The notes under the pieces: generated by a model | Told to the model about the DNA's origin: nothing | The model's database searches: none | Seen by the model: only the letters and a program-made list of their open reading frames with translations | Part shown: piece after piece, positions 12,838-16,444 of the stretch | How the letters are laid out: each line of letters begins with the position of its first letter | Position numbering within the stretch: the stretch's first letter is position 1 | NCBI GenBank assembly: GCA_030148645.1 | Contig: JASBTB010000101.1 | Location: forward strand, 1 to 43,241 | Length of the DNA stretch: 43,241 nt | Direction of reading: 5' to 3' | Origin: Demequina sp. | Lineage (GTDB): Bacteria; Actinomycetota; Actinomycetes; Actinomycetales; Demequinaceae | Translations under genes and position numbers: made by a program

Positions 12838-13119
12838 GTGATCAGATCATTCGGTGACAAGACCACCGAGCGCATCTGGAACGAGCAGTTCACGAAGTCT
12901 GTTGACCCGATGGTTCAGCGTGTGGTGCTGCGCAAGCTGGAGATTCTCCACGCCGCGCGCGACGTTGAGGACCTACGGATTCCTCCGGGGAACCGTCTTG
13001 AGAGGTTGGTCGGTGACCGGCGGGGCCAGTACAGCATCCGTGTGAACGCTCAGTGGCGGATTTGCTTTGTATGGAGAGATGGAGGTGCGGATGATGTCGA
13101 ACTTGTCGACTACCACTGA
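12838..13119 (+). CDS. higB: HigB/RelE-family toxin
   Basis: A 93-residue toxin of the RelE/HigB superfamily, in which known members cut mRNA on the ribosome. Recognisable features are the N-terminal MIRSFGDKTTERIWNEQFTKS, the middle LRIPPGNRLERLVGDRRGQYSIRVNAQWRICFVW, and the C-terminal VELVDYH that ends in the His seen in family active sites. GTG 12838 is the only start that preserves the full N-terminus. Toxin-first gene order, with a 29-base overlap into the antitoxin gene, is typical of higBA. The pair lies directly after ychF, between two copies of the ychF tail, suggesting insertion. Related systems include plasmid-maintenance killer proteins. Confidence 0.9.
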   Translation: MIRSFGDKTTERIWNEQFTKSVDPMVQRVVLRKLEILHAARDVEDLRIPPGNRLERLVGDRRGQYSIRVNAQWRICFVWRDGGADDVELVDYH

Positions 13120-13414
13120 GGTCGAGTTGATCCGGCCTGTGCATCCCGGTGAGATCCTCATGGAGGACTTCATCGAGGGCTTCGGTATCACCCAGAACAA
13201 ACTCGCGGTGGCAATCGGCGTGCCTCCGCGCCGTATCAACGAGATTGTCCACGGCAAGCGCGGGATCACTGCTGACACCGCGGTGAGACTCAGCGCGTAC
13301 TTCGGAAACTCGGCGGAGTTCTGGATGAATCTTCAGTCGCACTACGAGTTGAGGCTTGAGCGTCGAGCCTTGAAGGCTCAGGTGGCGGCCATCACTCCGC
13401 TGCACGTCGCGTGA
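13091..13414 (+). CDS. higA: HigA-family antitoxin (XRE helix-turn-helix)
   Basis: A 107-residue antitoxin and autorepressor. It has the HigA/VapI signature IRPVHPGEILMEDFIEGFGITQNKLAVAIGVPPRRINEIVHGKRGIT, where the helix-turn-helix lies in QNKLAVAIGVPPRRINEI. The C-terminal ADTAVRLSAYFGNSAEFWMNLQSHYEL contacts the toxin in related proteins. ATG 13091 follows GGAGG at 13081-13085 inside higB, so antitoxin translation is coupled to toxin translation but has a strong site of its own. It probably binds the inverted repeat at 12798-12829. A degenerate ychF tail follows six bases after its stop codon. Confidence 0.92.
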   Translation: MMSNLSTTTEVELIRPVHPGEILMEDFIEGFGITQNKLAVAIGVPPRRINEIVHGKRGITADTAVRLSAYFGNSAEFWMNLQSHYELRLERRALKAQVAAITPLHVA

Positions 13415-14241: not shown

Positions 14242-14673
14242 TCAGGAGATCGCCCGTCTGACGAGTTCCGCGATGCGCGCCTCGACCTCGTCGTCGATGG
14301 CGGTGAGGGCAAAGGACGTCGGCCAGAACGTGCCCTCGTCCAGGGCGGCCGTGTCCTGAAAGCCGAGCGTCGCATAGCGCACCTTGAACTTGCCAGCGTC
14401 CTGGAAGAACACCACCGCTTTGCCCGCCTTCGCGTACGCGGGCATGCCATACCAGGTCTTCACCTCGAGTTCCGGGGCCACCGTGGTCACGATCTTGTGA
14501 ACCCGCTCGGCGAGCGTGCGGTCGGCGGGTGCCATCGCCGCGATCTTGTCGAGGCACGCCTGGGCATCGGCGGCCTTGCCTTTGGCGGCCCTGGCGCGCT
14601 TGGCCTCGGCCGCGTGCTCCTTCATGGCCGCCTTCTCTTCGGCCGACCACGTCTCGTTGCTCTTGCTCGCCAC
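14242..14673 (-). CDS. DUF1801 (YdhG-like) protein
   Basis: A 143-residue cytoplasmic protein. A charged alanine-rich N-terminal helix (SAEEKAAMKEHAAEAKRARAAKGK) is followed by a DUF1801 domain: LDKIAAMAPADRTLAERVHKIV, ELEVKTWYGMPAYAKAGKAVVFFQ and FKVRYATLGFQD. The domain belongs to the YjbR/CyaY-like superfamily, and some members are called iron chaperones, although the function of this actinobacterial type is not established. GTG 14673 follows AAAGGGG at good spacing; the frame upstream is open but has no family similarity. The 155 bases between this gene and the CGNR regulator contain no gene I can support. Confidence 0.8.
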   Translation of the reverse strand: MASKSNETWSAEEKAAMKEHAAEAKRARAAKGKAADAQACLDKIAAMAPADRTLAERVHKIVTTVAPELEVKTWYGMPAYAKAGKAVVFFQDAGKFKVRYATLGFQDTAALDEGTFWPTSFALTAIDDEVEARIAELVRRAIS

Positions 14674-14828: not shown

Positions 14829-15368
14829 CTAGCCGTCGCTCGTGGTCTGTCGAGCGCGGTACGCGGCCACGGCTGCCCGGTTGGTGCAGGTGGTGGAGCA
14901 GTATTTGCGGGAGCGGTTGCGCGACAGGTCGAAGACAACGCCGTCGCAGTCGTCGTGAGCGCACCGGTCGAAGCGGCTCATCTCGTCTGCGCGGATGACG
15001 TCCACCATGGCCATGGCCGTCTCCACGAGGATGCGCTCCGCCAGGGGGCGGTCGTCCGAGATGGCGTGGATGTGCCAGTCGACATCTCCGTGGCGCACGA
15101 GTTGCGGCACGGCATCCTGAGCACTCAGGATTGCGTTCACCAAAGGCACAGCCTCCTCGCGAGATGCGATGAACATGGCGTGCAGTTGGTGGCGGATCGC
15201 TCGCACCGGCTCGAGGTCGCGCTGTACTGGACGGGCACCGGTGTACTGGAAGTCGTCGAAGAAGGCCTCGAGTTCCTCCAGGGTGGTGAGGGTGTCCGGC
15301 TCCAGTTCGGTGTTGGAGAGCCGAACGGCCGATTCCAGCGCCTCCGCGGTGTCACTTGCAAAAACCAT
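14829..15368 (-). CDS. CGNR zinc-finger / ABATE-domain transcriptional regulator
   Basis: A 179-residue predicted DNA-binding protein. The N-terminal half is the ABATE domain, proposed to sense a ligand. The C-terminal half is a stress-linked CGNR zinc finger: FDRCAHDDCDGVVFDLSRNRSRKYCSTTCTNRAAVAAYRAR, with four cysteines to bind zinc. The name-giving CGNR is CTNR here. It is divergent from an EamA exporter with 38 bases between the starts, and the two share a promoter region with a symmetrical TGACAC/GTGTCA pair, so it probably controls that exporter and itself. The start codon follows TAATGT by six bases, implying a leaderless message. Confidence 0.88.
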   Translation of the reverse strand: MVFASDTAEALESAVRLSNTELEPDTLTTLEELEAFFDDFQYTGARPVQRDLEPVRAIRHQLHAMFIASREEAVPLVNAILSAQDAVPQLVRHGDVDWHIHAISDDRPLAERILVETAMAMVDVIRADEMSRFDRCAHDDCDGVVFDLSRNRSRKYCSTTCTNRAAVAAYRARQTTSDG

Positions 15369-15369
15369 G

Positions 15370-15400
15370 TTGACACATTACCACCGACCCTCTAGTGTCA
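15370..15400. promoter_or_regulatory. Divergent promoter and operator between CGNR regulator and EamA exporter
   Basis: On the plus strand TTGACA (15370-15375), a 17-base spacer and TAGTGT (15393-15398) form a near-consensus promoter ending eight bases before the exporter ATG. On the minus strand TAATGT (15380-15375) lies six bases before the regulator ATG. TGACAC (15371-15376) and GTGTCA (15395-15400) are mirror images that overlap these elements, a likely binding site for the regulator. Confidence 0.65.
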
Positions 15401-15406
15401 TGAGTC

Positions 15407-16444
15407 ATGGCCGTAGTGACTAATGACGCCCCGCCTTCACAGCTCGCTGGAGGTCTGGGCTTCGCCGTGGTATCCGCCGCCTCCTTCGGGCTCTCGGGGA
15501 GTCTGGCGCGTGGCCTCATGGACGCCGGGTGGACAGCGGGCGCGGCCACCATTGCCCGCGTCGTCATCGCTAGCGCCGTCCTGGTGGTGCCCGGCGTTCT
15601 GGCAATGCGCGGCAGGTGGCAGGTGCTCCGCAGGGCGTGGCGCACGGTGGTGGCATACGGGGTCTTCGCCGTCGCGGGCGCGCAACTGTTCTACTTCCTG
15701 GCGGTGGGGCATCTCGACGTCGGTATTGCGCTCTTGATCGAATACATCGCGCCCATTGCGGTCGTCGTGTACCTGTGGGTCCGCCACGGCCACAAGCCGG
15801 GTCCCCTCACCGTCGCTGGCGCGGCGATCGCGGCCTTGGGGCTGGTGTTGCTCCTCGACGTGGTGGGAGGCGGAAACCTCAGCCTGGTGGGTGTTGGCTG
15901 GGCCCTGGCGGCGATGGTGGGTGCCTCCGTGTACTTTGTTCTGTCCTCCGACACCTCTACCGGCTTGCCCCCGATCGCGCTCGCCACCGGCGGTTTGCTG
16001 GTCGCCAGCGTTGGACTGGGACTCGCCGCAGTGGCGGGGGTCCTCCCGGTGACTTTCACCGCGCGCACCGTGCGCCTGGTCCCTTTCGACGCCCCGTGGT
16101 GGTCGGTCGTCCTGGCACTGGGGGTCGTTTCGGCGGCGGTCGCCTATGTCACGGGGATCGCGGGCACGCGGTTGCTGGGTGCAAGGCTCGCCTCGTTCGT
16201 GGCGTTGATGGAAGTGATCGCAGCCGCCGCCTTCGCCTGGCTGCTGCTGGCGCAGACGCCGCTGCCCATCCAGTTGGTCGGGGCGGGACTGGTGCTCGCG
16301 GGCGTCGTCGTGGTCAAGACGGGCGAATCTACCCCGATCCTCGACAACGCGGTCCCGACAATCGTCGCCCCGGTCCAGGGGCCACGCCGACGCCGTGTGT
16401 TCGGCAAGCAGCGGCCGGCCAGAGTGCCCGTCGACATCGGGTAA
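15407..16444 (+). CDS. EamA-family (DMT superfamily) transporter
   Basis: A 345-residue membrane protein with about ten transmembrane helices in two EamA halves. The first begins LGFAVVSAASFGLSGSLARGLMDAGWTAGAATIARVV; the second begins near VGVGWALAAMVGASVYFVLSS and ends LASFVALMEVIAAAAFAWLLLAQTP. A basic cytoplasmic tail of about 40 residues follows. Family members export amino acids or other small metabolites; the substrate here is unknown. It is divergent from a CGNR zinc-finger regulator, the commonest hint of ligand-controlled efflux. The ATG lies eight bases after a -10, so the mRNA is probably leaderless. Confidence 0.9.
   Translation: MAVVTNDAPPSQLAGGLGFAVVSAASFGLSGSLARGLMDAGWTAGAATIARVVIASAVLVVPGVLAMRGRWQVLRRAWRTVVAYGVFAVAGAQLFYFLAVGHLDVGIALLIEYIAPIAVVVYLWVRHGHKPGPLTVAGAAIAALGLVLLLDVVGGGNLSLVGVGWALAAMVGASVYFVLSSDTSTGLPPIALATGGLLVASVGLGLAAVAGVLPVTFTARTVRLVPFDAPWWSVVLALGVVSAAVAYVTGIAGTRLLGARLASFVALMEVIAAAAFAWLLLAQTPLPIQLVGAGLVLAGVVVVKTGESTPILDNAVPTIVAPVQGPRRRRVFGKQRPARVPVDIG

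Follow-up and report, generated by a model that had tools for sequence, protein, structure and literature searches.

Two 31-bp dyads as candidate operators of a CGNR zinc-finger regulator in the divergent cgnR-eamA control region of Demequina sp.

The short gap between the CGNR zinc-finger gene cgnR and the divergent exporter gene eamA proves to be a genuine control region, conserved to an unusual degree and of a familiar kind, a local regulator next to an exporter. The conserved unit is a 31-bp inverted repeat, GTMA-N3-GTCA-N9-TGAC-N3-TKAC, found twice, once over each of the two start codons. The anatomy of the region, its conservation, a constraint on its letters at the DNA level and its near-uniqueness in the searched genomes are observed directly. 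We consider it likely, reasoning from these features, that dimers of the CGNR protein bind to both repeats and repress cgnR and eamA, and that a ligand releases them. The features discussed here are given below, with positions in the window, i.e. the whole stretch of 43,241 nucleotides that was analysed.

14829 to 15368, minus strand: cgnR, a 179-aa regulator with an ABATE domain and a CGNR zinc finger
15407 to 16444, plus strand: eamA, a 345-aa EamA-family exporter (PF00892, E 2.1e-25)
15351 to 15381, no strand assigned: OL, 31-bp dyad over the cgnR start codon, GTCACTTGCAAAAACCATGTTGACACATTAC; its left half lies in cgnR codons
15397 to 15427, no strand assigned: OR, 31-bp dyad over the eamA start codon, GTCATGAGTCA-N9-TGACTAATGAC; its right half lies in eamA codons
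15370 to 15375, plus strand: predicted -35 of the eamA promoter, TTGACA, overlapping the right half of OL
15393 to 15398, plus strand: predicted -10 of the eamA promoter, TAGTGT, overlapping the edge of OR and ending 8 nt before the ATG
15375 to 15380, minus strand: -10-like TAATGT of cgnR, inside the right half of OL
15371 to 15400, no strand assigned: TGACAC-N18-GTGTCA pair, made of inner halves of OL and OR and not itself a conserved unit

The gene pair, its relatives and its promoters

The cgnR product matches PF07336 (ABATE, E 1.8e-12) and, following it, PF11706 (zf-CGNR, E 3.6e-15), both above the Pfam cut-off. An earlier sequence-only reading of this DNA had called the two genes a CGNR zinc-finger regulator and an EamA exporter, and the Pfam matches, including PF00892, bear out both assignments. 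In 16 aligned orthologs C136, C141, C157, C161, N163 and R164 are kept at 90% or more, and the CxNR helix motif reads CTNR in the window's protein. The protein matches PDB 3h0n (Jann_2411) by sequence (3.6e-13), and 3h0n was also the sole match with E ≤0.001 in a fold search (TM 0.52/0.51, rmsd 13.9), for which an AF2 model of modest confidence (pLDDT 75.8) was used; this fold comparison adds little to the assignment. The locus lies on contig C138 of a 2.2-Mb draft genome, in which zf-CGNR has one match, cgnR itself. Elsewhere in the window, two overlapping small ORFs after ychF (12838-13414) resemble, judged by eye, a HigB/HigA toxin-antitoxin pair, and an ORF on the minus strand (14242-14673) resembles DUF1801 below the Pfam cut-off (22.2 vs 27.2 bits).

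CGNR/ABATE proteins are common in Actinomycetes. Searching with the CGNR protein gave matches in 135 of 199 relatives and in 223 of 345 genomes of the class, paralogs included, and a named genome collection searched in the same way gave 16 loci. An EamA match was found near 182 out of 215 CGNR loci and was divergent in all 182; judged from these sequences, cgnR and eamA form a divergent regulator-exporter module which is kept as a pair. After removal of 33 loci without EamA, 16 exact duplicates (90 nt round the start) and one locus with a gap >600, a set of 165 divergent cgnR-eamA loci remained, including that of the window, with CGNR protein identities of 33-100%. These loci are related and may include near-duplicates, and all counts are to be read as those of non-independent trials. 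For CGNR matches that start late (e.g. L127, L134, L136) the cgnR start was extrapolated and is possibly misplaced.

In the window 38 bp separate the cgnR ATG (15368, minus strand) from the eamA ATG (15407, plus strand). TTGACA and TAGTGT stand in this gap as had been claimed, with a spacer of 17 nt; TAGTGT matches TATAAT at only three of six positions, and no site reached the cut-off of a promoter scan. As had been proposed, the shared divergent promoter is compact. A TTGAC adjoining the cgnR start and followed after 17 or 18 nt by TAnnnT is common to 150 of the 165 loci. An open eamA frame begins 35-43 nt from cgnR in 86 of the 165 loci, and in 81 of these 86 TAnnnT ends 8 nt 5' of the eamA start, which suggests that the eamA message is probably leaderless. 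In two loci (L003, L004) the early eamA ATG is now ATA and an ATG stands behind AGGGAGG 78 nt from cgnR; both keep the operator half TGACTAATGAC and have a TTG at +48 as a possible eamA start.

On the other side TAATGT stands 6 nt before the cgnR ATG of the window. Among the 165 loci TAAKGT was found in 66, an AGGAG Shine-Dalgarno sequence in 50 and neither in 49, never both together, and it is the right arm of OL that doubles as this -10 or this Shine-Dalgarno sequence. A leaderless cgnR message is thus plausible in the window and not general among the loci. The proposal that both messages are leaderless can therefore be kept for eamA; for cgnR it may hold here, not as a rule.

Two dyads under constraint at the DNA level

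The region from -45 to +110 of the cgnR start was scanned in all 165 loci for GTCA-Nk-TGAC. The spacer k=23 gave 128 matches and k=22 gave 28, while all other k between 19 and 27 gave 8 in total; 825 control pieces of the same length from the same loci gave three matches, none of them at k=22 or 23. The matches cluster at two places, -18 (OL) and +28/+29 (OR). Because a spacing of 16 is equally frequent, each arm is read as TGAC-N3-TKAC. Written as GTMA-N22/23-TKAC, OL is found in 123 loci, OR in 149 and both in 118, and ten shifted controls gave 0/165 throughout, bar a single count of 1 (0/165 at the OL position). In 109 of the 118 loci that have both dyads their starts are 46 or 47 bp apart. 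Sorted by CGNR identity, both dyads are present in 35 of 41 loci (at least 69%), 36 of 43 and 30 of 44 in the two classes between, and 17 of 37 (below 45%).

Not everything about the dyads is in favour of an operator. OR is a good palindrome in the window, with 10 of 11 arm bases complementary, and OL is a poor one (6 of 11 by hand count), which counts against such a reading. The conservation of the right half of OL alone proves nothing because the same bases serve as -35 and as -10 or Shine-Dalgarno sequence, and the fact that the right halves of OL and OR vary together in their letters is weak evidence, being confounded by descent. Eleven of the 165 loci have neither dyad despite a divergent cgnR-eamA pair, eight of them from family f7. 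This family has nine loci in the set, of which eight (L134, L136-L142) are without both dyads and one (L130) still matches OR; a change of operator is possible in this family, with the cgnR starts of L134 and L136 being extrapolated. TTGACYCATTTC is present instead in six of the nine loci. Two diverged CGNR-EamA pairs of one genome (L136, L140) lie on a single contig, G052:C17.

The sequence-only reading had taken a mirrored pair, TGACAC at 15371-15376 and GTGTCA at 15395-15400, for a candidate operator and had suggested an alignment of relatives as a check. Both hexamers are there by direct reading, and TGACAC-N12..24-GTGTCA occurs once in the window (shuffle mean 0.05, five out of 100 shuffles with one). 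A single TGACAC is not enriched in the window (15 found vs 29 expected). Three TGACAC/GTGTCA copies lie within 52 bp; the third, GTGTCA at 15349-15354, lies inside cgnR and had not been mentioned. The exact pair is found in 11 of the 165 loci (left TGACAC in 68, right GTGTCA in 31), and among the 41 loci of at least 69% identity the left hexamer is present in all 41, the right one in nine and the pair in six. The pair as operator is therefore rejected, and the conserved units are the two 31-bp dyads. The looser TGAC-N19..24-GTCA, found in 129 of the 165 loci, is expected because TGAC and GTCA are the inner halves of the two dyads. The alignment thus gives strong conservation at the locus, carried by the dyads and not by the pair. 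A conserved operator for the regulator is very likely at this place, as had been supposed, with the correction that the dyads extend past the proposed stretch (15366-15409) into both coding regions.

It could be argued that the conserved blocks are merely the core promoter, Shine-Dalgarno sequence and start codons of two overlapping genes, without any operator. That the right half of OL serves eamA as -35 and cgnR as -10 or Shine-Dalgarno sequence fits this explanation, as does the TTGAC-N17/18-TAnnnT arrangement in 150 of 165 loci. We regard it as highly improbable, as it leaves unexplained the equal spacer of 22-23 in both dyads and what is found in the coding regions. The left arm of OL occupies cgnR codons 5-7, and the codon preceding the Asp of this arm has T as third base in 143 out of 143 genes (14 loci without Asp-Thr at this place and eight without a recognised start codon were left out), although this codon encodes H, D, P, N, S, Y, T or R. 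The background in the same genes is 838 T among 13,747 pyrimidine third bases (6%). On the eamA side, where three of the 86 loci with a close start are without the Asp, hence 83 genes, T is the third base of the corresponding codon in 82 of the 83 (H, N, D, P, R, Y), against 852 T among 19,920 third bases in these genes. Furthermore, the right half of OR can be coding in 103 of its 149 loci and is kept in 46 in which, with ATG, GTG or TTG as start, part of it must fall outside the eamA coding sequence (seven with an in-frame stop after it, 23 with a frame opening inside it, 16 without a preceding start codon). The T-ending codons together with these 46 loci indicate that the arm is kept at the DNA level; on these counts promoter and protein constraint do not explain the kept arms in the coding regions. 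If the predicted leaderless starts hold, each dyad would have one untranscribed half, so that a reading as RNA hairpins would fail and the dyads would act as DNA.

Specificity within genomes and CGNR genes without EamA

Allowing up to three mismatches, the full 31-bp pattern was found in 28 of 44 genomes, every time at the cgnR-eamA locus; elsewhere in the 44 genomes it was found at two places (G012:C2, G009:C1), and the reversed pattern had no match in them. The 16 genomes without a match count against the operator reading. In the genome of the window OR matches the pattern with one mismatch and is the only such place, and exact TGACWCATKAC occurs three times, two of them in the cgnR-eamA promoter. 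A wider regulon was rejected after inspection of the two extra places, of which G009:C1 adjoins an apparent tRNA (by eye), and the remaining half-site of the own genome on C141; all were taken as chance. Because the dyad is near-unique in the genomes searched and zf-CGNR has one match in the own genome, the CGNR regulator looks dedicated to a single target.

The half-sites are short, and the dyads might belong to another, possibly global, regulator and not to the neighbouring CGNR protein. For comparison one EamA gene without a CGNR neighbour was available (G058, L294; G018 was left out with its eamA at a contig edge), and it has no GTCA-N21..23-TGAC in 2.7 kb, a weak comparison with n=1. The almost complete confinement of the dyad to the cgnR-eamA locus in the 44 genomes also speaks against another regulator, as do those CGNR genes without EamA that bear dyads of similar size with different arms, and we think it quite unlikely that the neighbouring protein is the wrong one. 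Of the 33 CGNR loci without EamA, 18 have such a dyad of their own, 29-32 bp long and placed at the start codon of the respective CGNR gene. They fall into three groups:

Group A (L216, L218, L219, L224): GTAAGC...GCTTAC, 31 bp
Group B (12 loci): GTAAGGGT...CATKAC, 29 bp, an imperfect inverted repeat
Group C (L223, L227): GGTGACTG...CAGTCACC, 32 bp

In group A a further dyad of 31 bp, GTAATGA...CCATTAC, stands 46 bp from the first. In all groups the probable start codon falls 11-16 nt inside the dyad (group C has alternative starts), and the arm codon ends in T (CCT, GCT, AGT) in 18 out of 18 loci. Some control windows of the loci without EamA overlap real dyads, and these control counts were not used. 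Three further loci without EamA (L213-L215) keep an OL-like site, and, as a point against the operator reading, 12 of the 33 have no such dyad (L016, whose sequence is without the gene start, L194, L204-L210, L212, L228 and L235). Near the C-terminus the zinc fingers vary from group to group, VAAYRAR going with TGAC-N3-TKAC and VRRHRAR with GTAAGGGT. Six ORFs neighbouring CGNR genes without EamA comprise one methyltransferase, one LysE, one TauE, two MFS proteins and one without a match; the CGNR paralogs L226, L217, L223 and L227 adjoin these other transporters (TauE, LysE, MFS).

The chances seem about even that at least four actinobacterial CGNR subfamilies share one operator plan, i.e. dyads of 29-32 bp in which only the arm letters vary with the zinc finger. 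On such a plan the first dyad would lie over the start codon of the regulator with its arms in the first codons, a second one would follow 46-47 bp off in some subfamilies, and the neighbours of CGNR genes would often be transporters (EamA, LysE, TauE, MFS). On plasmids, where six of eight regions were scanned (Shinella and Neorhizobium left out), both dyads are present in the loci of Embleya and Arthrobacter; the four loci of Tsukamurella, Thioclava and Agrobacterium (two), the last three alphaproteobacterial, have no dyads, a further point against the operator reading.

Proposed mechanism and comparison with known systems

We propose that the gap controls both divergent genes as a self-contained region and carries two operators to which the CGNR protein binds, each a 31-bp inverted repeat of the half-site TGAC-N3-TKAC. 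OL, centred on the cgnR start codon, would cover the -35 of eamA as well as the -10 or Shine-Dalgarno sequence of cgnR, and OR, beginning at the eamA -10, would lie over the eamA start codon. One CGNR dimer could occupy each dyad, with its two zinc fingers on the same side of the helix and separated by about 20 bp, i.e. two helical turns. By occupying both sites, whose spacing is 46-47 bp, the protein would block RNA polymerase at both promoters and so repress its own gene and the exporter, until a small molecule, probably the substrate of the exporter, binds to the ABATE domain and releases it. CGNR binding, repression and the inducer are what we infer, and so is the dimer, from the dyad symmetry and the dimer reported for 3h0n.

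As OL and OR between them cover the two promoters and the two start codons, joint repression is the simplest reading; the sign of regulation is a guess from operator position. An overlap with the -35 is also a position used by some activators, and OL, which overlaps the eamA -35, is weaker than OR in the window. The CGNR protein might thus bind to the dyads, activate eamA (e.g. from OL) and repress only itself. We find this unlikely, since OR spans about -10 to +20 of eamA, where a bound protein is expected to block the polymerase, and since TTGACA is already a consensus -35. If binding of the CGNR protein is confirmed, the dyads would supply an operator for the CGNR zinc-finger class. The defined 31-bp site and the named target make this class directly testable, and the dyads of the paralogs could serve as a specificity series.

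Among the open-licence papers listed in searches for the CGNR family, no title or abstract describes a CGNR operator, and one is a structural paper on the family; no paper was found there on EamA together with a zinc finger, divergent genes and an operator. The structural paper (PMC2954205) deals with 3h0n, which has the same two domains (PF07336, PF11706) as the window's CGNR protein, and proposes that it is a dimeric regulator which binds DNA and responds to a ligand yet to be identified. Neither "operator" nor "EamA" occurs in the main text of that paper; a specific operator, its spacing and a target are what is proposed here in addition.

The predicted eamA promoter resembles leaderless actinobacterial promoters with a TANNNT -10 in that its TAnnnT ends 8 nt before the ATG, and differs from them as these bases abut or overlap an operator dyad. 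A known system that works in a similar way is tetR/tetA, a divergent pair of local repressor and exporter with two operators, which is autoregulated and induced by the substrate of the exporter. The cgnR-eamA pair is likewise divergent with two candidate operators in the shared region, and by analogy autoregulation and the substrate as inducer are proposed for it. In contrast to tetR/tetA, however, the CGNR regulator would have a zinc finger of the treble-clef type (judging from its homology with 3h0n), and the dyads are 31 bp long, lie over the start codons and are partly coding, with an eamA message that is probably leaderless.
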